Source: Crambe crambe (lineage: Eukaryota; Porifera; Demospongiae; Poecilosclerida; Crambeidae). From it: DNA of 64,000 nt. The translations under genes were made by a program, and so were the position numbers. Below the pieces are notes generated by a model. That model ran no database searches. It saw only the letters and a program-made list of their open reading frames with translations, and was not told the origin of the DNA. The DNA lies in NCBI GenBank assembly GCA_963924555.1, contig OZ004588.1, positions 6,545,205-6,609,204 of the forward strand, read 5' to 3'. This document shows, piece by piece, positions 17,104 through 56,137 of this stretch; the stretch's first letter is position 1, and every line of letters starts with the position of its first letter.

Positions 17104-18212
17104 CATAGATATAAGAGGTTTTACGGGATTGGAAACGCCCAATGAACTGCACAACCGTGGCGCGTTGACAGATGCGCACGCGCATGCAGCATTAATTATA
17201 TTAATCGTTGTGAAAAGAGATCAATATTCACTCCTTTCAAGGCAGTTAAAGTGATATTCTGTCCCTACAGCTCACAGAATAGTACAAGTAAGCTAAGGGG
17301 AAGGTATTGAAGAAGTGAAGAGTCAGAGAGTTGAAGTTGGAGAGTCAGAGGAAGGAAGTTATTAATTATTCATAACTTTTTTCCTTGTAATTATAACTAT
17401 GAGTACCTATCATTGCTCATTATACATTAATTTTATGTGATTGATTTGAAAGAAAGGCCAGAATGACTTTTGGTATTAAAATTAGACATAAATTCATCAT
17501 TATTATAGCTATATAATTTTGCCCCAAAGTTATCCGCCAGTTTCTGCTCAGTTCTCCCTCATCAACATTATTGCAATACTTCCAGCTTTTGGCTGTTGGG
17601 TTTTGACACCATCCACCTCAAGAATTCGGCTCAGTCAGCTGTCCTGTGGACCCTATGGATATTTGGGGGGAAATATAGTAAGCTTGCCATCTCCATAGGA
17701 TGACTATTGTATAGAAAACGAATGCACCAATTCCATTTACTGTTCTATCCTTTCCCTGAAATAACTAATACAGTTTCAATATTGTTAATCTATTTCTTGG
17801 GAGAGGGATTACAGTTTTAACACCACTTGCAAATGCTAGAGACAATATATGTCAGCTAATACTAAAACCAACATTACTATTCCATGTAGCTAAAGTTTAC
17901 ATGCCTTTTGATCAGAAAATGGGCAACAGCAATTGATTCCATCAAGCGTGAGAGGGATTACAGTCCCATTAACCACTACAGTAGTATTTGTAGGAATAAA
18001 CTTGAAAATCTGAGCTGAAATTTATTTCATACAGTAAATCTATGCCCTAGTGTATTATAGTATCATTGGCATAAGTCTTACCTCACGGATCTTGTCAGAA
18101 CAGCAACTTTGACAAAAGTGCTATGTCATTCAGCTGTCAACGCGCCTCGGTTGTTAGTTGCTAACGAGAGCACGTGATCCGTTTCCAATCCCGTAAACCT
18201 CTTATATCTATG
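17104..18212. mobile_element. P-type non-autonomous element nested in element B
   Basis: Inverted ends CATAGATATAAGAGGTTTTA (left) and, reversed, CATAGATATAAGAGGTTTAC (right), both continuing to GGGATTGGAAAC. Perfect 7-bp duplication GTGTAAC (17097-17103, 18213-18219). No coding capacity in 1,109 bp. The ends begin CATAGATA like those of P-like element B, so B-type transposase is the natural candidate for its mobilisation. It lies just upstream of the partner gene. Confidence 0.8.
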
Positions 18213-22511: not shown

Positions 22512-23189
22512 ATGATTGTACATCATTTAAAAATAGCCATTGAAATGCATGAAATGTCCAATTACAACTATTATTGCCACTGGCTATAGGCTGAAAGTAT
22601 GAGAGTCCTCTACTTTAAAGGCTTCTAGAACTAACCATATCAGTTAGAAGGAAAAAATGATAGATTCTCCCGGTGTACCAATATTTAAACTGTTGCATGG
22701 CATGTAGTCTCAGTGTTAACAATGCGTAGTCCTGAAGAAAATCTAACCAAAATGGACTACATTAATATGCTCAAATTCAGCTCTACAATGCTATACATTC
22801 CTATTTGACATTAACTTTCACATTCTCCCAGTCTAACATAATGTATTGTTGCCTCTGTATTACTTTTTTTCCTGATGCAGTGCATTGGTCTTCAGTAAAT
22901 CTAACCAAAAGTTGTTTTTAGTGTTGATACAATATTGTAGCAGTTCCCATTGCTGACTGGTTGGTTATTTCCACTAATTTTTTTAAGGTACTACTTACCT
23001 GATTATCATCCATTAATTTTCGCACGTGAACTATACCACAATACAATTTAGTAAGCAACCGCAAAAGAAAAACTGCAGTGACACCGCTTGCAACATTGGT
23101 AGTCAAGCGAGACAGTGATTGTACCGGGGAATTCCGTATACTATTCCGTGTTCGCGGGCGTTTCATATCCATACGGAGTACCCATAATT
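22512..23189. other. Leader region and right terminal part of P-like element B
   Basis: Between the first recognised transposase exon and MULE-C. It should contain the promoter and first exon of the B transposase. A possible donor follows a short frame ending KLMDDNQ at about 23000, but I could not establish an exon. 23150-23189 is the inner part of B's right terminal repeat. Confidence 0.5.
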
Positions 23190-23650
23190 GGGTGTGTATA
23201 AACTTCGGACCGGACCGGACCAACGGACCGTGTACGATCTGCGTGCGCGGAGCGAGGCGGACCATGACGTCATGCAGCTAGCTGCAAACTAACTGTATCG
23301 ATCAGCAGCATAGGAACCGATAGTCTTATTACTATAGGAGTGTTTGAGCTCAATATTATTTAGCTATACTTGATAATTGAATAATTCATACCTCAGGCCT
23401 AGAAGCCCATGCAGTTGCTACATCTATATAGATAGCTAGCTAGCTAGCTAAACTGTAGTAATCTGTAGTCTGAAGCTAAATATTGGTAGCTAGCTAGCTA
23501 GCTAGTCTGATAGTGCCACTTGCAAACTGGTTCACTATTAACTTTTTATATTGGTAGTCTGAAGCTGGTAGCTAGCTAGTCTGATACTGCCACTTGCAAT
23601 CTGGTTCACTGAACATCGACTGTAGTTAAAGTAGTTAAAGTTAGCTATAG

Positions 23651-26600
23651 CTAGATTAGTTGCTCAATTAATGATTGTTCTTTTAACTCTAAAATCATTC
23701 TTTTTCTGATATTCTTTATGTGTTCCTGCAGGGAAAGAATAACTAAAAAGCAATAAAAACACAACATTATGCTAACCTGACTGAAAGAAAAAGGCCGATT
23801 AAACGCTTGATATCTTGCATACTATACAAAAAAAAATAGCTAGTTTTATATTGATATTAATTGAAGTATTCTTACCATGCATGTGAATACACCACAGTCG
23901 TAACCATTTGTTTGCTTAGGTATATCCTAATAATAAAAATATAATAATAAATAAAAATTCTTAATAAATAAATTACTTTTGGGCATAGCATCTTCCAACT
24001 GGAGAAGTCTACATTGGGATTTGCCTTGCTTAGGTAATTTCTGAATCAGAAAAACAGACAATCAAACTCAATGTTGTAACAATAACGAATAAGTTTAGCT
24101 ACCTGATTGTTTCCAAGCATCTGATGTATTCACCATATATGGAATCATAGTAACGCAATTCCTGCATAGTAGTGTCTACAATAGCCAGACACCAGTGTGC
24201 ACCTCTGTTGATTGGTACTATAAATTTTTGGTATGTGAGAACATTGACCTATGTATGTATGCATGGGCATCGTACGAGTGAAAGGCAAGAGCAAAGTTAA
24301 TGACTATCGTGGAACCTCAATAAAGGAGACTCCTAAAGAGGACAAGTCTTTGAAAGGACAAAAAGTTGGGCCCTGAGTGTGTCCATTATTTAGAGGTTCC
24401 ACTGTATACATACTAACTACCTTGATCCAGTTGGCAATCGAATGGTACCCACTTTCACATAGCTTTTGATAGAAAAAACATGAAACACAAAAGACAGAGT
24501 TAAGCCTTTCAGAGTTTGCTTCCCTCATAAGAAGAAACATGTAATAGTCAATGATCTGTTGATATTAAGAAATCATAAATACACCACCTATTATTAATTC
24601 ATTAGGTCACCTTATCATCCAACCAATTAGTGTCACCAAGTGTCTTTAAATTGCTGTCGTACACTTGACAGTTGTTTATACTGCAAATTAAAACATCTTT
24701 GGGCTTAGAATCAGCAACCTGTGGAAAAAAGAATATGCATGGCCTTTGAACAATAGTAGCTATAATAATAGCTACATACAGTGGAATCTCCAATAATTAT
24801 TGTGTACAAAGGACAATAAAAGAAGTCTCTATAGCTGAGGTTCCACTGCATGTATAATCTATTATACATTTTCCTTCTCTTCCATAATTTGGCTGAATTC
24901 CTTCTTCTGATCATTTGTTTTCTCTTCTGTAATAATTTCATCAGTTTTATGGTCTCCTGAATGACAATAATAGAATGGAGCAATCAATAGCATGCAATTT
25001 TCTCTTGGACATTAAAACCACACTTACAGAAAATGCAAAACCTATACATTCAGAACTTAAATTCCGCTAGTGATTTTTTGCCTTACATATAGCTACATGT
25101 AGCATGGCCTGGCCAAGCAAATGTACATTATGTACTATAATGTATAATCACCTTCTGAATCAAGTCTCATCCTTTTACACTTCCTCTTTACACAACATTG
25201 TCTAAGTAATCCTCTCCCACCAAATTTTGGCTTATCTTTACAATAGCGACACTCCCCACAATCTGATGTTGTGCAACTGTTACAAGTTCCACACCTCTTT
25301 CGTTTTTTACCTGCAAGTTTACATGTCAACAGAGTAGCTAGTAATTCTTAAATTTTTATACCTGAATATCGTTGACTTGGTGGATCAAATTTCTCATGAA
25401 TTTGAGTCTCTTGCTACAAGTAATAATTATAATGACTATTTAGATTACACATTATTAGCTAGCTAATTGTTTACCTCTTTGATGGAAGTAGAGGTTTGGT
25501 TGGCTGGATTACTTGTGTCCTCGTTTTCCTGGTGAACATAATATGGACCTAATTTATTTGTTCTAGATTATGTATTCCATAACATACATTTTTATCTTCA
25601 AAGGCCTTGGGGTTGACGGGAAAACTTTGCTCAGCACCATCTTTTGATTGCTGAAATTATTATACAGCAACATGACATCAAGTAGCTGATACAATAAATG
25701 TATAGTAATTAACCTTTGTAGAAGCACTTGAGTCAGGAGCAGGTACAATATCATAATCACCAGCTCTAGGTGCTTTTCTTCCACTTTTCTTATCTCCTCT
25801 TGATCTTGTGTTACGTCTCAGCTGGGATAAACTAACCTTTTGTTTAGAATCAACATCCTCTAACCCAATGCTCATCCTAACTGCCAAGATGTGATAGCAT
25901 CGAGAAGTAGATGGACATGTGCATGATTCTTTCGGAAACAGGCGGATAGCATGAGGTTTCCCAGTTGTTGGAAAACCCAATGACTGATTGTGGCTGATTA
26001 AATTGTTCTCAATAATTGACCTACATGATTCACATAGTTGTTTGTGCACTGATCATTTATTACTTATCAAGACTAACCTTGCTCGTGAAAATTGGGTAAT
26101 CAAATGTTCACCATTCTCAGTATCTTTCTCTTCTTGCAATATAATTTGGGATGGACCTGTGATAATAATGCTGTGATTGGAATAAAGAAATTAAATTATC
26201 TATTACTCTTTTCCGAAGAATTGTCGCCTGTAATCATTTTTCTCTTTATCCTATCCACTATATCTTGTGGTGAATAGCAGGTGATAATAGAGAGTTCATC
26301 CTTTGTCCTAGCTGCAGTACTGAACTTAGATGAAAGTTGGTAGTTTCCTAATCCTATATAAAATGTAAGCAATATTAAATATTGAATGTGAACAGTATTA
26401 ATGAAAACCAACCTGCAAACCCTCTCTGTATTTCATTGTGAAAGTAGGCTTGGAGATGATATAGAGCGAGCAAAATGCAATCAACTGGAACCCTCCATCT
26501 TTGTAGTCGCTTCAGTGTCACATTAAAGCTTTCTGATTGGTTATTGGTAATGCCAGTAAAGGGATGATATAAATTCATTGGCTCCAACACAAATCGACCA

Positions 26601-28061
26601 AGAGTGACAGGTAACTATTGCCATCATAAGCATTAATAAATCGTGCGGTCATAATAATAATATTTAATCATTACCTCTGGATGTATCTCACTCATGAAAT
26701 ACTGCACAAAAGCTTGGCTCCACTTCATTTTGAACACCTTCAGTCTTTGCTCATAACTAGCATAACTGCTTTCATTTAGCAAGTCACGAACATGGCTCAC
26801 GTATGCTGGAATTTCTGCATGACTAGCTCCATGCTTCTTGAGCCATAGTTTGACTGCATTGATGGTATGATTCCAACAACGTAGGCGAAGGACATTTGGG
26901 AGGTGCTTGTCGATTGCCTGCATGTATTAAAATCAAATTCGCATAATGATAAAACAAATTTATTTTGCTTACTCGGTGTATACCAACTTCATCATCAGTC
27001 ACTAATGGAACCTTGTGCTTTCCTGTCACTAGACTTGGTACTGATCGAGCTAATTGCTGCATAAATTCCTCATGGCATGCTTGGAACTTCCTTTCATGAA
27101 TGAGGAATAGGGAAGGAATGACGGGTGATGGAGAAAAAAGGGTATGTCGAAACAGTAGCAGGGACAAGTAGAAATCGCCCAACTGAAAAGTGGTATCATA
27201 GGAGAGTAACTGTGTAGACTCAAATTGTGCTTGCAAAACTAATTCAAGCTCTTTCAGGACTGTGTCAAAACCACAAACAATAACCAGGTCTGGAAACGTT
27301 TTAATCATCTTCACAAAGTCACCCAAATCATAAGCCAACTCATGCAGGTTATATAGAGCATCATGAGTAAGGCGTGATTTTTGGCGTTCCTTCTGCTGTA
27401 AATTGATGACTTGTCTGGAATTGCGTGGCAAATGACTAGACTGGAATTCAGGTGCACACGCACTTGAAGAAATAGAATTCTTATACACATTAGCTGGTAG
27501 ATCAGGAACAGAAGCAAGTTTGGTCAGAACAGAGGGACATGTACGATGAAATATACGGTTTTCAGACTTGGAATGTCCATGAGGAAAGTTTATAGCAACA
27601 CTTTCATCTCCTATGTAGTGAATTAAAACTTGGTTATTTCTTGTAGAATCCATAAGGAAATAGGCATGACGCTTGAATCTTAGATCTCTTCCTGAGGGCA
27701 AAACGATTGAAAAATATATTTTTCGAAATTTTGGATCACTGTTAGGAATCAATTTGGTCCCATTCTGGTACCAGCGATAACCATCCACTTTCCAGTCATC
27801 TACAGAATAAGTATATATGGTGGTATGAAAAGAAGTTAAGCAAGCTCACTTCCAAAAAACTAGCAACACAACACAACACAACACATATTTACCTTTGCTT
27901 ATATCATTCTGGATTAAGTAAAGATATACTTCTCCACCTTTTGCATTCCTAGGAGGATAAGTGGGCTTGAGATTTGTATTTTTCTTGAAATACTTCAAAA
28001 CATCAGTAAACTTAAGTTCTTCATTGCAGTTAAGCCTAGCTACAGGAGTAATCACTTCCAT
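23651..28061 (-). CDS. MULE transposase fused to CG-1-like, SWIM, CXXC and Ulp1 protease domains
   Basis: 19 exons (minus strand): 28061-27893, 27799-26973, 26917-26675, 26614-26413, 26353-26207, 26156-26078, 26020-25714, 25650-25588, 25528-25475, 25413-25362, 25310-25152, 24956-24868, 24718-24611, 24555-24421, 24248-24103, 24040-23977, 23926-23876, 23821-23777, 23725-23651. All junctions are GT-AG and in phase, giving about 1,004 residues. Domains: CG-1-like DNA-binding region (about 57-125; VDGYRWYQNG, LIHYIGDES); MULE DDE core with Asp 258 (LLSYDTTFQLGDFY), Asp about 325 (VTDDE), CWNH about 346-349 and Glu about 441 (NNQSESFN); SWIM finger about 589-599 (CTCPSTSRCYH); CXXC finger about 718-760 (CGTCNSC, CGECRYCKDKPKFGG); C48/Ulp1 protease about 798-1004 with His 896 (GAHWCLAIVD), Asp 913 (YYDS), Gln 953 and Cys 959 (TNGYDCGVF). 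The protease would cleave SUMO- or ubiquitin-like conjugates; the CXXC finger should bind unmethylated CpG. No break seen. Confidence 0.9.
24306..24405. mobile_element. Tiny MITE-like insertion in a MULE-C intron
   Basis: Ends GTGGAACCTC and its inverse GAGGTTCCAC about 100 bp apart, as in pogo/Tigger-type mini-elements. Lies in the intron between Ulp1 exons 14 and 15. Confidence 0.5.
24779..24848. mobile_element. Second tiny MITE-like insertion in a MULE-C intron
   Basis: CAGTGGAATCTC at the left and GAGGTTCCACTG at the right, 70 bp in all, preceded by TA. Same family as 24306-24405; it lies in the intron between exons 12 and 13. Confidence 0.5.
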
Positions 28062-28221
28062 CCTTTAGCTGACAAAAAGAGAACGGCGGGCAAATCAGCC
28101 ACGTGTACGTCTGATCAGCATGACGTCATGGTCCGCCTCGCTCCGCGCACGCAGATCGTACACGGTCCGTTGGTCCGGTCCGGTCCGAAGTTTATACACA
28201 CCCCTATAATTATTATCTATG

Positions 28222-47884: not shown

Positions 47885-48875
47885 TAGTGATTCCGGAAGC
47901 TAGACCTGCCCACATATAACTAGCTCTATCTCAAAGATCAATCAACACATGAACGCTTAACTCATATCCAGCAGCAGCTTAATAAATGTACTAACTACTC
48001 AAACACCAAATGAACCAGTGTGTTGTGTTCACAGTTAGCGCCGTTGATTTTTAGTTCTATGGAGATTTATATGGGGAAAACGGTAAATCTGTATAACATC
48101 TATGTGCTTTAGTCTCGCGGGCCCGACCCTTTACCAACCGCGAGGGAAGGAAAGAGTCTGGTCAAATCCAATACATGATCTTGCTTCAATTGCCCAAAGA
48201 TTTGGTGGCGGGCATGCGCAAAACGTCACGATACGTCACCGCTCTCAAACAGATTTTTTCGCGCGTGCACTTACAGAGTAGTCCTAGAGTTTAGTCATGT
48301 CATAGATATATCTATGGTCATGTTAATGAGCTGCTTGCTTGTATGCAGAGATCTCATTGGTGATCATAGGAAAAAGAAAAGGCTGCATGGTCCAGGGTGT
48401 GCATCAGCCAAAGAACTGCTCCAGGTACTTGCAGGAGTTGCACTGGAAAAATTTCCGACACTTTCTGACCAGAAAGCTGTTTCCAAGCCTCCTCCCACTC
48501 TCTTGAATAGCCGCCTCCAGTCTGTAATCATATTCTTGCTCAGCCATGTAGCGCTAAGAAATCCAGAGCGCAGATTTTTCCTAAATTCGTGATGTATAAA
48601 ACGTCATAGTCGCGCCCCTCCTTCCGAAGATTGCTGACTGTGCACAACAAGATCGTGTATTGGATTTGACCAGACTCTTTCCTTCCCTCGCGGTTGGTAA
48701 AGGGTCTGGCCCGCGAGACTATAATGTGCTTCACCTGTTCCTTGGTTAACCCACACCAGCAGGTAGGCCTTGTTATAAGCTAGCTAGTGATATCTAAACA
48801 TCAAGCGCTTCTATAACCGTCAGGCTGCGCTGGCCGGCCAAAGTTTCAGGAAATGTATGGCTTCCGGAATCGCTA
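47885..48875. mobile_element. MITE with TAGTGATTCCGGAAG ends, itself interrupted
   Basis: Same family as 43160-43512. Starts TAGTGATTCCGGAAGCTAG, ends CTTCCGGAATCGCTA. Perfect 7-bp duplication TTATAAG (47878-47884, 48876-48882) at the junction of repeats T and R. It contains a nested element at 48110-48721, which accounts for its greater length. Confidence 0.8.
48110..48721. mobile_element. Nested element with TAGTCTCGCGG ends
   Basis: Inverted ends of about 70 bp: TAGTCTCGCGG, CGACCCTTTACCAACCGCGA and GGAAGGAAAGAGTCTGGTCA at the left, inverse at the right. Flanking duplication ATGTGCTT (48102-48109, 48724-48731) with one or two extra bases at the right edge. The uninterrupted family member at 43160 confirms that the sequence is an insertion. 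No convincing gene. An 8-9 bp duplication fits hAT-like or Mutator-like movement. Confidence 0.75.
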
Positions 48876-49035: not shown

Positions 49036-49510
49036 TCGTTACGCAACCTTAAATTTTAATGGGTGCAACTAGTTTCACGTCGTTTGATGCCACTCACGTG
49101 ATAAAAGGGGGTGCAAAGTTCACTAGCGCTCAGCTGTTTTACGCGCTCATTTGGCGGGCAAATACGAACTGGCAATCATGGCTAGTCAGTCTCCTAAATG
49201 GGCTCAAGGTCTCACAGCTAATAATCTCAATTTTGAAGGAATAGTAGATGGGGATATGTTGGAAAATATACTAGAACTTCACAAGAGAGACACAGTTAGC
49301 ACTTTTGGGACTCGGTCAAGTCAAGTCGTAGAGTGACCAGAAAAGATGAAAATAGTGACATAGCTAAGGTATGTGACATGACAGAGATACATAAATATAA
49401 TGTATAAGGTAGCTAGCTGGTCCAGTTGACACTGAACAACATTCTGGAATACTTGACTTGTGGCCAGCCAGCCATCAGGGCTCGTTACAGTACAGTGCTC
49501 TCATCTGCAA

Positions 49511-49528
49511 GGGGGGGGGGGGGGGGGG
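49511..49528. repeat. G-run followed by a GGAA-rich purine tract
   Basis: A G-run in the first intron of MULE-D, followed by about 230 bp of AGGAAG-type purine repeats (49540-49750). It creates long but meaningless open frames on both strands. Confidence 0.8.
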
Positions 49529-49775
49529 AAGGGTCCCAGGATGATGGAGGAGGAAGAGAGGGAAAGAAGGAAGAAAGAAGGAAGAGGGGAGGGAAAGAAG
49601 GAAGAGGGGATGAGGGGAAGAAAGGGACGATAAGAGGGGAGGGAAGGAAGAAAGAAGGAAGAGGGGATGAAGGAGGATGGGGATAGGGATAAGAGAGGGG
49701 GAGGGTAGGAGGGATAAGGGGGAGAAAGGACAAGGAAAGGAAAAGGGGTGAGGAAACTAGAATCACAGAATTGCA

Positions 49776-49776
49776 C

Positions 49777-49824
<48 letters not shown>

Positions 49825-49876
49825 GGTAAATAATTTCTTTCTTTTTTCTTGGGGGGGGGGGGGGGGGGGGGGGGGG
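49776..49876. repeat. ATT microsatellite and G-run
   Basis: About sixteen ATT units (49776-49824), then a G-run at 49852-49876, in intron 1 of MULE-D. Confidence 0.85.
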
Positions 49877-52041
49877 AATCCTATCAACTATCAAAGAGGA
49901 TGAATGGGGAGAGCAGAGGGGTAAGGCAAGGAAAGAGAGGGAAAACTAAGGGGGAGAAATAAAGGGGAAGAAGTCGTAAAAGGGGAGGGGAAAAGGGATG
50001 GGTCCTGACATTGTTGGTTTTCTTTCATACATTAGACAAAACTTTATTGGAAGCACACTACTGCCAATCAAGTAATTGAGTTTGACAACACTCCATTCAG
50101 TCTAGGAGAGAAGCGTACTCTTCACTGCCAATATGGCACCCATTATTATAAGTCGAAACCGCATACCAATAATCGAGTATTCTTGCAAGGGACAAGGAAT
50201 AAAGGGTGCCTAGCTCATATCAAAATAGTCCAGTTCAACAATCTAGTGCTTCCTGAAATGTCTCAAAAGAAAATACGGAGGTTTGTTTCATAAGCTAATT
50301 TTATGAGAACTAATTCTATTGAAAATACGGAGTATTCGAGAAAATAGCCTCAAAAGTCTCAAGCAACAGCTCAGCTCCAGCAAAGTACCAGAAGTAATAC
50401 ACAAGTATTACATTAGCCTACCAACTGAAGAAGCACACCACAAATATCATCCCACAAAGGGGGTTATGGGATTATCACAGCGGGTTCACCCTGAACTCAT
50501 AGCAAAGATTCAGGAATATGTTTCAATTGGAACTGTTGAACCTGTTGAGGTACAGCGGCTATTGAAACACCATGTGAACCATTACATGTGTGCAGGAAAT
50601 TTGCCCAATCCCAATGACAGAGCGTATTATCCTAGTCCTACTGATGTGAAAAACCATATAGCTAGGGCAAAGAGAGCATTGCAGCTATCAGTAATAGACC
50701 AAGAGAATGCAGCAAAGCTAATTCAACAACAAAATAATCATTCCCCAGAATCAAAGTACTTCTTTAGGCCGTACAAGTGTAGTCAGGCCAGAGATGAATC
50801 TGGACCAGATTTACAGCTATGAGCAAACCCTGTTATGGGTCCACCAAGACCCATGGCAACAAAAATTAATGATTACATATGGTAATACCATGAGTCTAAT
50901 GGATGCTACCTACAAAACTACTCGTTACGATCTACATTTGTTTTTTATATGTGTGCGTACAAATTCTGGTTACTGTGTAGTAGCTGAGTTTATAGTACAG
51001 TCTGAGTCAGCCACAGACATAGAAGAAGCACTAAAGGTCTTAATATCTTGGAATCCAGAGTGGAAGCCTAATTACTTCATGACGGATTTTTCTGAAGCTG
51101 AAATTTTAGCACTTGAGACATGCTTTCCAAATATTACTGTATACCTGTGTGATTTCCACCGGGAACAGGCTTGGGAAAGGTGGGTGAAAGACAGCACACA
51201 CGGTTTGAGCTCCTCTGAAAAGGATTGGCTTCTTGATCAACTTAGAGCTTGTGCATGGGCTCCATCAGCTGATTCAAGTGATGGTCAACACTTGGATCAC
51301 CACTATCAGAAAGCTGTTACTACTCTGAAGTCATCAAACCTATGGAAAAATAATCAACAAGTGTCAACATGGCTGACAACTACATGGTTAAGTATGCCAA
51401 AGGTGAGGGTGGGATTCCTTTGGATACCATACTCGCTCCTAATTAAGCACTACTGGCTGTTAAGCGCATACTTTCTTATTAGCACGATTTGTTAATGGAT
51501 GTGTTCTAAATCAAGCTCACCTTAAGTACAAGTGCATGTCTAATAAAACCAGTATCAAAAATGGCAGAAAGTTGTGTTCTTGAGCCTCCACAGCACTCCA
51601 AGAACACTAGAAAGAGCTATACTAGGGAGAAGAAATTGAAAGTTATAATCTAGTTTCTACAGAGAAAATCCTTGATGATGGCCACTACACTTAATGGCAG
51701 GGTCTCTCCAATGAAGGGGGTCCACACCGATTTATAGACATGATGTCCTCTAATGATACTTTCAAACTGGAATGTGAATTCTATGATCTATTTGTCCAAA
51801 TAAAGCACATACTCGGCTGCACTTTTGCTTATAAGCACACCTCGCAATTAAGCTCATACTTGCATATTTTCTTCCTGTGGAGATACAAGCACATGCGCCT
51901 AATTAGGAGCGAGTACGGTACTGGAAAATATCTGGAACGAGTGCTACAAATTTGAATACTTTCAAAAGCAAGGCCAAACAGGAGCAAAAATAAAGAAGTC
52001 ACATGATATTTTCCAGTGTGGTAGCTATGGAACCAAAAGCT

Positions 52042-52072
<31 letters not shown>

Positions 52073-52860
52073 GAGGGCTCACTAAGTTTTCTTATTACAG
52101 TAAGTGGAACTTCTCAGTCTTCATATAATCAGGATATTAACTCAGGTCCCAAGTGTTCTGAATTACGTAGAGAGGTTTCAATCCTTAATAACACTGATGG
52201 TGTCCATTGTGGAGGGATTGTTCTTTATTCAGAGTGCAGTTGGAGTGTATTGTTACTGGTCAAATCATTTTAAAACACACTATAGAGATGGGCAAGAGCG
52301 TACAGGGATACGGTGTATCATGCAGCAATAGAAACTAACAATGGGACAGAAGCTCTCAACAGACTCCTCGAATACAAGTACCTTCCGAAACAGAAACATA
52401 TGACATTGTCTCATATCATCAGTAACATCACCAATCAATTTTTTCCAGCACTACAGTATAAGTATGTATTCCAAAACTTCAAACTATCAAATTTGTATCG
52501 CTCCTACAACCCATCAGTGGTACCCAGTTATTTACAGGGAAGGCCAAAGCAAACCATTCTACACTGCCTGCATAGAGAGGCATCTAGCAACAAATTCATG
52601 AAGGAAGATGTTACACAAATTCACATGGGGAAGTTTGAGGTCAAAGGGAAGAAAGGATCATACAAAGTTAGTTTTGGAGATGAATTCCATGATCCCAAGT
52701 GTACATGTAAAGACTGGTTTACTTTTCACCTCCCATGCAAACATTTTTTTGCCATATTTCACCACTTTCCGGAATGGGATTGGGGGAAACTACCAAAAAG
52801 ATACCTCACATCTCCTTATTTAAGCAATTTTGATGAAATTCCCAGGAAGGTTTGTAATAC

Positions 52861-52870
52861 AAGTGGGGGT

Positions 52871-52908
<38 letters not shown>
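52861..52908. repeat. G-run of about 40 bases
   Basis: Lies just after the donor site of the SWIM exon in MULE-D, so it is intronic; translation into polyglycine is an artefact. Assembly length is uncertain in such runs. Confidence 0.85.
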
Positions 52909-52909
<1 letters not shown>

Positions 52910-53390
52910 AAGCTTGTGATAATGAAGATGGCAATGTTAAAATACATTTGGGGTCTGTGTTCACATGTGAAGTAGGTCCAACATTGACGTGATATTTCAT
53001 TTTCTAGCGTAAGTGTCGGTCTGCAGAAGACCTGGCCCTGGAGGTTAAAATCACCCTCAAAACTATTGGGTCCCTAACCTACAACTGCACAGATGAGCAT
53101 ACTGATGCCTTATCAGAGCTCAGTGCCAAGTTAGAGGATATAGTGACTGAATTCAAAGTGTTACTTCCTCAATTTGATGGGCTACTTTTGCGACCACACT
53201 TACGCAAAAGAGCAAAGTTATCTCTGCAAACAAAGGATTCAGGAACCAGTTCAATACCCCAACCACAAAAACGGGGAAGGAAAAGACAAGATCACACCTA
53301 CCGTAACAGAGTTGGACAAAGGGCACAGAATCTCCGTAAGGTATGCACTGTAGGGGTACATGTATGTACAAGTACTTGATATATATATTA

Positions 53391-53474
<84 letters not shown>
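53391..53474. repeat. AC microsatellite of about 42 units
   Basis: A pure AC dinucleotide run in the intron between the basic linker exon and the next exon of MULE-D. The Cys-Val frames on the opposite strand are artefacts. Confidence 0.95.
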
Positions 53475-53477
<3 letters not shown>

Positions 53478-54812
53478 AAGAACAGTGAGAAAGTATAAGA
53501 ATATCACCACTTTGAAGGATACCAGAACCAGCCCTGTTCACAACAAATCTGGCCTTATCAAGGACTACATATCTCCCAGAACTGGTCTTATCAATGATAC
53601 CATTCCCCTTCAAAGCAGCAAATCAAATTCAGGTACTAGTATTGGTAATTTAACCAGCTCAGAGACTAAGGTGCCTGTGAATCACAGGTGGTGCTCCCAA
53701 GACTAGAAAGAGAGGGTGCATGAAATGCTCAGCATGCATGAGGGAAGATTGTGGTTCATGCGTCAACTGCAAAGACATGGTGAAGTTTGGAGGCAAAGGA
53801 AGAAAAAAGCAACGATGTGTTTATAGGGTGTGCACACAAAAGGAGGCTTCAAAAAGATGTCACAAGGTTTCATACCAAGGTATGGCAGTTAAAATAATGG
53901 GTCCAATGTTTTTACAGACCAAGGTTGCATGATATACTCATGGAGAAGTTGAAGGGTCTGGGATGAAGTTTTTACTTGCCCACCTTCAGCTTATAGTGGG
54001 TGAACTCAACCTCATAAGTAGACAAACACACAATAATACACACCCTAGGCTGGCCATTCATTTTCTGGGTGCTTTCACTATGGTTAAACCATTTTCTTGT
54101 GTGTGTTAGGTTGTCCAAATGCAAAGCCACTCCCAACTATCATTGAACCAACTTTGGATACTACACCAATACTATCACTGACCTACTTTGTAAGAAACCA
54201 TTACCCTATGAACATCAGAAGATGGATTTTGACCCACTGACACCCCCATTTTATAAAACTCACATCAAGGAACTCAAAAAGAGTGGACGGATGGTCAATG
54301 TCACAACAGCAGATGGAAACTGCCTCTATCGTTCTCTGTCCTAAGGCCTAGTGGGAACAGAAGAATACCATTATAGTGTCAGATGTGTGCTGTTCGGCTT
54401 CATCTCTATGAACTCGAATATTTTCATGCCTCACATAAAACAGAAACACCCAGGTATGACCAGCATCAATGACTATTGGTCAGCAATGAGCAACAATGGA
54501 ATATGGGGTACAGATATCGAATTATTAGCTGCTTCAACAATCTTACAAGTACCAATATATACGTTATCACTTGAAAATTCAAAATCATATCGATGGCTCC
54601 AGTACCTACCTCTGTCACCTCCGAGTAGCATTCTATGTGATTATGTTGAGTCAGTGAAGAAGCTAGTTCATATGGCCAAACATGAAGAGTATCATTTAGA
54701 ATTGTTTCATTATGAAGGATGTCACTATGACCTGATCATGTCTATAAATCAGAATGCTCTCCAATTCCCTATATTGTCAAAGTTTACTTGTGACATAACC
54801 ATTAATACTTGA

Positions 54813-56137
54813 AGCACACTGTTAGACTTTCAATAGCATATCAACCACTTTAAATGAACCATGATTGAATGTCTTGCCACAGTATTTTGTAACCATCTAG
54901 CTAGAGATCTAGTAGTCCAACTCACCCCCACCCCAGCAGTAGTCTTAGCTTGCTTACCTAGTTTTCACTCCATCTGCAACTTAGCTGGGATCAGCTATTA
55001 CATAGTAAACAAGCACATCACGTGATTATCTCGTGACTATCTAGTGACTTGGGGCATCAAACGACGTGAAAGTAGTTGCAACCAAATTTTAATTTTTATG
55101 ACGTCATGTTTGACTTGCCACGTGGGCAATTTTTTGTTGAAGAAGTGGTAGGTAGTTCTAGCCTCTCTACTCTCCTTTAGAGCAGTTTTCAGTGGCCACG
55201 CTTGAAGTACCTATGCAGGAAAGCTGTAAAAACGAGCTATGTGTTTATGGAGTGTAGATAGCTGGGCACTCTGTTTTTAACGGGGAACTTCTGTTAGATG
55301 GATTAAAGAGCTGTACTTGGGTCTCGTTGGAAAGCGCGCTCTAGGACAACATTGGAAAGCGTGCACAATTCAATAACCAGGTATGTTAAAGATAGTTATT
55401 TTAGCAGTAGATATGTCATTTTAAAGTAGATGTATAGGTGTCGAAAAATATAATCCACGAGATTACAGAATGATAATAATAATAGAGCTACAATAAATCC
55501 ATCTATCCTCACTTTCAATTTCAAAGTCAATTTCATCTTAAAAAACGAAGTCCATAATATCATCAACATCATGATCTCTCTCTGTGGTGTTGCAGCAGTT
55601 TCTGCATTCATATCCAGCTGAGCAAGAGTTTGCCTTCTTTCTACAATTGGTTTGCACACCTGTAACCTCTTATCAAACTCTCAAGTCTATTCCTGATGGT
55701 CTTGATGTTTTCATTAGTGTCTCACACTACAGCGAGTGAGTTATTCTTTATGGACCATCTGTAATAATTATGATAGTGACTGAAGTATTGTCCCCACAGG
55801 TGCAGAACCCAGCAGGATCTCTTCCAGTGCTTCATTGGAGGCCGTCATCCCATTTTCAAATTTTGTTCTGAACCACGGATGTCATCAAGCCATTTATGAT
55901 GCTATTCTTCCACCGACAATCCCAGGTTATTGAACATAGAGTAGTGGGTGGCCGGACATTGTGTAATAAAACCTTTTGAAGTACACCGTACCCACTAATT
56001 GTAGGAATTCCAAATAGCCTGACTTCCAGTTTAAGGGTAACCCTTAGGCAGCTTTAGTATTAGCCAGTGGCTAGTTGGTTCGCCTTGTGCCCATTTTGGA
56101 CACTAAAGTTATAAAAAAGGTTCCTGAAGCAGTACTT
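54813..56137. other. Right part of MULE-D without a clear gene
   Basis: Includes the inner inverted terminal stretch (about 55045-55110) and AT-rich DNA. 55800-55930 has ragged coding-like sequence with no frame. A short minus-strand frame at 55396-55659 has no recognised motif. Confidence 0.45.

Follow-up and report, generated by a model that had tools for sequence, protein, structure and literature searches.

A Mutator-like element of the sponge Crambe crambe and its predicted transposase with CXXC and SENP-type protease domains

Structure of the element and of its predicted protein

The 64,000-bp stretch of the Crambe crambe genome analysed here (C11:6545205-6609204, referred to below as the window) contains at positions 23190-28203 a Mutator-like element (MULE) of 5,014 bp; the genome that was searched comprises 143 Mb in 119 contigs. 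The element ends in two terminal inverted repeats (TIRs) of 86 nt that are complementary at 86/86 positions (100%), as an earlier note on this DNA had stated, and that each carry 12 CpG per 86 bp (observed/expected ratio, o/e, 1.45). The flanking 8-mers, CCATAATT and CTATAATT, agree at 7 of 8 positions. The gene model put forward in the note, 19 GT-AG exons kept in one frame for about 1,004 codons, could be rebuilt from the sequence: it runs on the minus strand from 28061 to 23651 in a single frame of 1,004 codons followed by a stop, and its introns, all GT-AG, measure 50-195 bp. This splice model is based on the reading frame and the splice sites, on a second copy of the element in contig C2 and, for exons 13-19, on introns held in common with a SENP-type gene; because the C2 copy is so similar, the splice sites kept in it are weak evidence for the model. 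We are highly confident that the ends, the gene and the order of the domains are as described here (Table 1). With a probability of roughly 0.5, we are dealing with a Mutator-like DNA transposon of the autonomous type, with a single predicted protein in which an epigenetic module has been joined to a transposase.

In the predicted protein, a DDE core and a SWIM-like finger stand between a CG-1-like N-terminus and a C-terminal part made up of a type-1 CXXC finger and a protease of the SENP1/2 type. When the spliced protein was searched with the Pfam profiles, with matches listed to E 1, the two C-terminal domains scored above their cut-offs (Peptidase_C48, 6.9e-25, 88.6 bits against 20.7; zf-CXXC, 1.1e-11, 45 bits against 26.5). 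Two other domains named in the earlier note scored below theirs, namely MULE (PF10551; 7.4e-4, 20.4 bits against 27.6, profile positions 2-97 of 99) and CG-1 (PF03859; 0.0021, 18.2 bits against 23.5, profile positions 12-114 of 116), and SWIM was absent from the matches at E up to 1. The motifs of the transposase core, DTTF, TDDE, CWNH, and NNQSES, occur in that order, and a ligand motif of the SWIM type (CxCxnCxH), CTCPSTSRCYH, is found at residue 589; the DDE, SWIM, CXXC, and C48 motifs that had been listed earlier do all lie in one frame. For SWIM, a sister family with copies on contigs C13 and C3 reaches 15.6 bits and a segment of the C2 copy 14.9, both below the cut-off of 19.6. For CG-1, a composite of exon 1 of the C13 relative and exon 2 of the C3 relative reaches 30.3 bits, above the cut-off, the C3 exon 2 alone 15.1 bits, and a relative on C6 16.6 bits. 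Since both regions are sub-threshold in the window protein and draw partial support from relatives only, the N-terminus is called CG-1-like and the finger SWIM-like. A sequence search with the CG-1-like region found no relative of known structure, and Pfam gives exons 8-10 and 12 no domain of their own. In a genome-wide search for the C48 family, the short exons of the element were not among the 8 best of 93 candidates.

Exon 11 encodes one CXXC finger. CXXC fingers of other proteins read unmethylated DNA, and the best match of this one in the PDB is MLL/KMT2A (4.4e-12). The finger has the eight cysteines, the KFGG, and the RQ of type 1, whose hallmarks are eight cysteines, KFGG, and KQ or RQ (PMC3685328), and the sister family has RFGG and KQ at the corresponding places. 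For the protease, the nearest solved structures are SENP1 (1.6e-39) and SENP2 (3.9e-36), and the catalytic H, D, and C (in GAHW, YYDS, and TNGYDCGVF) follow in order when aligned to SENP1. Boxes of the CAMTA type (consensus VCGCGB and MCGTGT) were considered as a target of the CG-1-like domain in the TIR and are unsupported: compared with shuffles that preserve CpG units, VCGCGB occurs 2 times against 3.25 expected (P 0.80) and MCGTGT once against 0.12 (P 0.11).

Table 1. Features of the window, in window coordinates
Feature	Positions	Strand	Basis
Left TIR, 86 bp, 12 CpG	23190..23275	+	end-to-end comparison
Right TIR, 86 bp, identical to left	28118..28203	-	end-to-end comparison
Imperfect 8-bp target-site duplication, left half CCATAATT	23182..23189	.	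flank comparison
Imperfect 8-bp target-site duplication, right half CTATAATT	28204..28211	.	flank comparison
Predicted transposase gene, 19 exons, 1,004 codons	23651..28061	-	one frame; C2 copy keeps internal GT/AG
Exon 1, CG-1-like domain begins	27893..28061	-	gene model, Pfam
Exon 2, remaining CG-1-like domain (to ~27612) and RNase H-like core	26973..27799	-	gene model, Pfam
Exon 2, acidic motifs 1 and 2: DTTF ~27197, TDDE ~26999	within 26973..27799	-	motif
Exon 3, CWNH motif	26675..26917	-	gene model, motif
Exon 4, third acidic residue within NNQSES	26413..26614	-	gene model, motif
Exon 5	26207..26353	-	gene model
Exon 6	26078..26156	-	gene model
Exon 7, SWIM-like finger CTCPSTSRCYH (~25891-25923)	25714..26020	-	gene model, motif
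Exon 8	25588..25650	-	gene model
Exon 9	25475..25528	-	gene model
Exon 10	25362..25413	-	gene model
Exon 11, CXXC finger: eight cysteines, KFGG, RQ; symmetric phase 1-1	25152..25310	-	Pfam, PDB match
Exon 12, linker	24868..24956	-	gene model
Exon 13, SENP/Ulp1 begins	24611..24718	-	gene model, Pfam, PDB match
Exon 14, SENP/Ulp1	24421..24555	-	gene model, PDB match
Exon 15, SENP/Ulp1, GAHW histidine and YYDS aspartate, 146 nt	24103..24248	-	motif, PDB match
Exon 16, SENP/Ulp1	23977..24040	-	gene model
Exon 17, SENP/Ulp1, TNGYDCGVF cysteine	23876..23926	-	motif, PDB match
Exon 18, SENP/Ulp1, 45 nt	23777..23821	-	gene model
Exon 19, SENP/Ulp1 end and stop	23651..23725	-	gene model
Second MULE, other lineage: CARF/ALS2CR8-like, MULE/ZSWIM1-3 core, SWIM-like, CXXC, OTU	49061..55084	+	

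Copies, relatives and the source of the protease exons

A genome search with the TIR, one of the checks that the earlier note had proposed, did return copies with the same ends: 43 candidates gave 40 scored matches, 32 of which form 16 pairs, and a further copy (L025), whose partner was found at 79% by local search, brings the number of TIR-paired copies to 17. They fall into size classes: the second full-length copy, in C2, measures 5,037 bp, some derivatives 2.2-3.2 kb, and a further set about 1.5 kb. Exact duplications of 8 or 9 bp flank 14 of the 17 (13 of them independent), the window copy has its 7/8 match, and two copies have none. Target-site duplications of MULEs measure 8-11 bp (PMC6446971). 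Because TIR-paired copies with such duplications exist together with shorter derivatives, the family has moved. Two of the copies (L020 and L021, C8:3600215-3613175) represent one insertion in two opposite orientations about 7.4 kb apart, either an inverted duplication or an assembly artefact.

The C2 copy differs from that of the window by 22 substitutions and 23 inserted bases, and it keeps all internal splice dinucleotides and all 19 exons; an extra base in exon 19 shifts the frame at the end of the protease. Compared with both the C2 copy and the C13 relative, the window copy is short of 12 bp (4 residues) some 16 residues ahead of the SWIM ligands and of 3 bp (1 residue) in exon 4, so that the word "complete" in the earlier note is slightly too strong. 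A third, partial copy in C1 matches the C48 part, with nothing upstream of exon 13 within its 2.4-kb piece. In several shorter derivatives, which contain stops, pieces of the CG-1 region (up to 83% identical, a rough figure because the alignments run through introns) adjoin C48 pieces, so that the protease was already part of the element when these derivatives separated from it.

The sister family is known from a copy at C13:264706, 61% identical in the transposase, and another at C3:3022520, 56% identical; both have frame breaks. The C13 relative retains the order CG-1-like, MULE core, SWIM-like, and CXXC on one strand, the C3 relative matches the N-terminal, SWIM-like, and CXXC parts with no match at about residues 245-507, and the outer end of the family resembles the TIR described here over 34 bp at 82%. 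Relatives at C6, C20, C12, and C60 have matches to the N-terminal region and to parts of the core; for the SWIM region, C12 shows a match in line with these and C20 one on the other strand. Adjoining the CXXC exon of the sister family lies a tandem array (L062 and L060, C13:257700-263210) of units of about 700 bp with repeated MEPREPENKRRR frames. Genome-wide, zf-CXXC gave 27 matches, with 4 in the two families described so far and 2 in the family of the second MULE of the window; of the others, four (L064 and L069-L071) were inspected at the level of sequence, and the remainder includes three equal-scoring ones on C7, about 40 kb apart. A C48 match at C20:3069548 and a CXXC match at C20:3071613 were considered as a third combination and rejected, the protease being upstream and the CXXC frame looking like an MLL-type host gene. 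Likewise, four pattern matches in viral contigs were not confirmed as relatives.

The introns of the protease bear on its source. A SENP-type gene, putatively of the host, has its catalytic part at C6:34077-35060 with introns at WLNDE|V, WTKK|V, LERLR|D (phase 2), CM|Y, and FSQ|E. Five of the six introns in the protease module of the element equal these in place and phase, the extra one being CPK|D; two exons have the same length in both (146 and 45 nt), and 79 of 186 aligned residues are identical. As these introns are shared with a SENP1/2-type gene of the same genome, the simplest reading is that the module was captured from a SENP gene as genomic DNA, which we consider probable from the sequences compared. 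The donor may have been this host or another animal, and the shared introns may be old. They also suggest that an animal MULE captured a gene in the form of DNA, which ended up within its transposase gene.

Insertion sites and the role of the added domains

The genome looks CpG-methylated, because CpG o/e in the window is 0.40 and CpG sites have changed more often than others in the copies: inside nine 1.5-kb copies, 13/234 CpG sites are changed against 36/12,238 other sites, a ratio of about 19-fold that is rough, the ancestral state having been set differently for the two classes of site. Around the 16 paired copies, CpG o/e in the flanks is 0.88 at 0-300 bp and 0.50 at 1000-2000 bp, with higher values near the element in 15 of 16 (p=6e-5). 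Over 36 sides of 20 insertions, it amounts to 1.21, 0.77, and 0.57 in the first three steps of 100 bp; the same steps give 0.57, 0.66, and 0.65 on 19 sides of a control family of miniature inverted-repeat transposable elements (MITEs), whose flanks show no clear difference from background (p=0.23). The first 100 flanking bp contain 6.80 CpG per insertion (n=20) against 2.37 in the control (n=19, p=1.1e-5), and 6.46 (p=1.4e-4) in the 13 insertions that remain once those beside one MITE family and one member of each homologous pair are removed. In these tests L021, which repeats the L020 insertion, was left out, the partnerless TIR matches at C20:4096053, C3:4472276, and C11:6200770 lay outside, and L017 was kept with its left end not intact. 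The control is one family of young copies, represented by 18 flanks in listed order, drawn from 40 scored among 247 candidate ends, and by the copy in the window. The ends of this copy (48110-48723) are 74 nt long and 97% matched, and it has a duplication of 8 bp, ATGTGCTT.

In the mechanism that we propose, the CG-1-like domain or the SWIM finger would bind the TIRs, and the CXXC finger would tether the transposase complex to unmethylated CpG clusters, whereby new copies would land in methylation-free places instead of the largely methylated remainder of the genome. The SENP domain would remove SUMO from silencing or repair factors at the donor or the target, and the whole module would be a means of landing and staying in expressible chromatin. 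The insertion bias fits guidance by the CXXC finger without proving it. The suggestion in the earlier note that the finger steers the transposase to unmethylated CpG is borne out in so far as the insertions are CpG-dense relative to one control family and is tempered by a similar bias of maize Mu (PMC2774946), and we regard guidance of integration as a nearly even question that leans slightly towards doubt. An action of the SENP domain on silencing or repair factors is put forward tentatively. If the finger does guide integration, the transposase would itself carry a reader of unmethylated DNA. This would explain in a simple way how a transposon keeps landing at expressible sites in a genome that seems heavily CpG-methylated, and it would offer a module that could be used directly to test insertion for its sensitivity to methylation.

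A number of observations weigh against an epigenetic module that directs insertion. First, the control is one MITE family and not a CXXC-less MULE of this genome. Among eight hand-picked MITEs, six were CpG-richer near (0-300 bp) than far (1000-2000 bp), with o/e values at 0-300 bp of 0.82, 0.11, 0.59, 0.23, 0.87, 0.94, 0.63, and 1.11; three of the eight (L016, L024, and L027) are no more than about 600 bp away from an insertion of the studied family, whose TIR is included in the flank of L024. Three of the 20 insertions are in, or at most 93 bp from, copies of one CpG-rich MITE family. Second, the CpGs of the TIRs are not clearly protected, with 2/198 changed at one end and 15/194 at the other, compared with 13/234 inside. 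Third, neither full-length copy is pristine, and dN/dS between them is about 0.47, on 14 codon changes only, some of which lie beside indels. The CXXC exon compared with the C13 relative has a weak codon-position bias (0.35, 0.40, 0.52), no C48 was found beside the CXXC of the sister family, with C13 scanned down to 257700, where the tandem array lies, and a genome-wide search with PF03859 gave a single match, elsewhere, so that the CG-1-like region of the element was not recovered. Finally, a CpG bias need not involve a CXXC finger, since maize Mu and Muta1, in neither of which we know of one, are biased as well. Mu favours the GC-rich, hypomethylated, H3K4me3-marked 5' ends of genes (PMC2774946) and Muta1 favours genic sites (PMC5225508).

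As a separate observation, the CpG-rich MITE family is also represented in the window, at 17105-18211, with ends CATAGATA.

The bias of Mu and Muta1 is also an argument for an alternative that we take seriously and hold to be possible, if doubtful: the CpG-dense targets would reflect a general preference of MULEs for open, hypomethylated promoter chromatin, and the CXXC finger would have another role, such as holding the transposase on its own TIRs or keeping them unmethylated. The CpG-richness of the TIR itself accords with this, and with the suggestion in the earlier note that the finger may act on the element's own termini, and the alternative is favoured too by a word, GCATGCGC, that we take to be NRF1-like, as at promoters, and that is present in 7/20 near flanks against 0.6 expected, although it was picked post hoc from the top-ranked words; YY1-like AA(A/G)ATGGC words are not enriched (1/20 near and 1/20 far flank sets). 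On the other hand, the three insertions named above lie in or beside the CpG-rich end of one MITE family, which is not a known promoter, the decay of TIR CpGs is not clearly below that inside derivatives, and GC in the first 100 bp is raised modestly over the control (0.468 against 0.411) but CpG o/e about twofold (1.21 against 0.57).

MULEs often capture gene fragments, and a Pack-MULE is made up of such fragments and has no transposase. The CXXC and SENP exons could accordingly be passengers, passively captured in the manner of a Pack-MULE and without a function in transposition, in a copy that was recently active. Capture of gene pieces by MULEs is documented (PMC13317346), the SENP exons keep their shared introns, the scanned stretches of the C13 and C3 relatives contain CXXC but no recognisable C48, and the codon-position bias of the CXXC exon is weak. 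Nevertheless, passive capture appears improbable to us: both sets of exons are in frame with the transposase, and the protease has its catalytic residues, the sister family (56-61% identical) keeps the CXXC with all eight cysteines and the K/RQ, the protease beside CG-1-region pieces in diverged derivatives predates their split, and the second, divergent MULE of the window likewise pairs CXXC with an isopeptidase. The element also differs from a Pack-MULE in that its transposase core is present. That exons 11-19 or 13-19 belong to a separate gene, so that the fusion would be only apparent, is very improbable, for although exons 8-10 and 12 have no Pfam domain of their own, a single frame extends over 19 exons with GT-AG introns throughout within one TIR pair, the C2 copy has the same exons, the CXXC exon is of symmetric phase, and the C13 relative has the transposase, SWIM-like, and CXXC parts in the same order and on the same strand.

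Known elements and a second MULE in the window

Ulp1 and OTU domains in MULEs are known already. MULEs with Ulp1 are on record from hydra, lancelet, and plants, and Ginger1 carries OTU or Ulp1 (PMC2836005). The hydra and lancelet elements (Repbase, cited in that paper) are, like the present one, animal MULEs with Ulp1; a word search of that paper did not find CXXC. Ginger1 likewise has a C-terminal Ulp1 or OTU domain in its transposase, once with a PHD finger, but it has a Gypsy-type integrase, an H2C2 finger, and a GPY/F motif where the element of the window has a MULE core and a SWIM-like finger (PMC2836005). KAONASHI/KIU elements of plant Vandal MULEs also carry Ulp1; KIU genes are VANC genes that have gained Ulp1 by transduplication, and VANC proteins direct hypomethylation of related elements (PMC13317346). 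These elements are non-TIR and have Ulp1 in a VANC-type gene, one of three (PMC13317346), whereas the present element has TIRs and, within the transposase frame, a SENP1/2-type protease as well as CXXC. Uptake of chromatin or ubiquitin modules is paralleled by the PHD finger of Rehavkus and the SET domain of Phytophthora MULEs (PMC6446971, Table 1); in the main text of that paper, a word search found neither CXXC, CG-1, Ulp1, nor peptidase, and Porifera are unmentioned. Muta1 of Aedes aegypti is likewise an animal MULE, its duplications measure 8 or 9 bp, and it prefers genic regions; by word search, neither Ulp1 nor CpG occurs in the text of the paper (PMC5225508). In fungi, there are DNA transposons that carry TET/JBP enzymes (PMC12730594).

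In the literature searched, with Repbase and most subscription papers outside its scope, no paper listed reports CXXC or CG-1 in a MULE, and none joins Mutator-like and CXXC in a search that combined Mutator-like, CXXC, SWIM, and Ulp1. This is consistent with the earlier statement that no described MULE combines all these domains, Ulp1 and OTU being known singly. New are the intron match with a SENP gene, the sister family with CG-1-like, MULE, SWIM-like, and CXXC parts, a MULE with CXXC and OTU, and the CpG-dense insertions.

The CXXC-OTU element is the second MULE of the window. Its ends of 32 nt are 94% matched, and a 9-bp duplication, AATTTTAAT, lies at 49052-49060 and 55085-55093. Profile matches were obtained to CARF/ALS2CR8-like (1.2e-7), MULE (1.3e-12), ZSWIM1-3 RNase H (2.6e-10), CXXC (3.3e-12), and OTU (1.6e-10, with two stretches joined beside an in-frame stop as the query), and weakly to SWIM (0.46). 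Barring a missed intron, this copy looks damaged, because a stop at 54342-54344 interrupts the frame of its OTU part. The OTU domain has a parallel in the Ovarian Tumour gene of MuDR-6_HM from hydra (PMC6446971, Table 1).

Of the wider points of the analysis, the most striking is that two divergent MULEs each place a CpG reader next to an isopeptidase, and the second element suggests that the pairing is no accident. It would be bolder to conclude that MULEs of this animal assembled such pairs repeatedly, CXXC with SENP in one lineage and CXXC with OTU in the other, steering integration to methylation-free CpG clusters and removing SUMO or ubiquitin marks there; we consider this unlikely as it stands. 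At the one insertion of the second MULE, CpG o/e is 0.85 near and 0.33 far, and a partial twin with SWIM, CXXC, and OTU stretches lies at C3:296400-299000 (L066).

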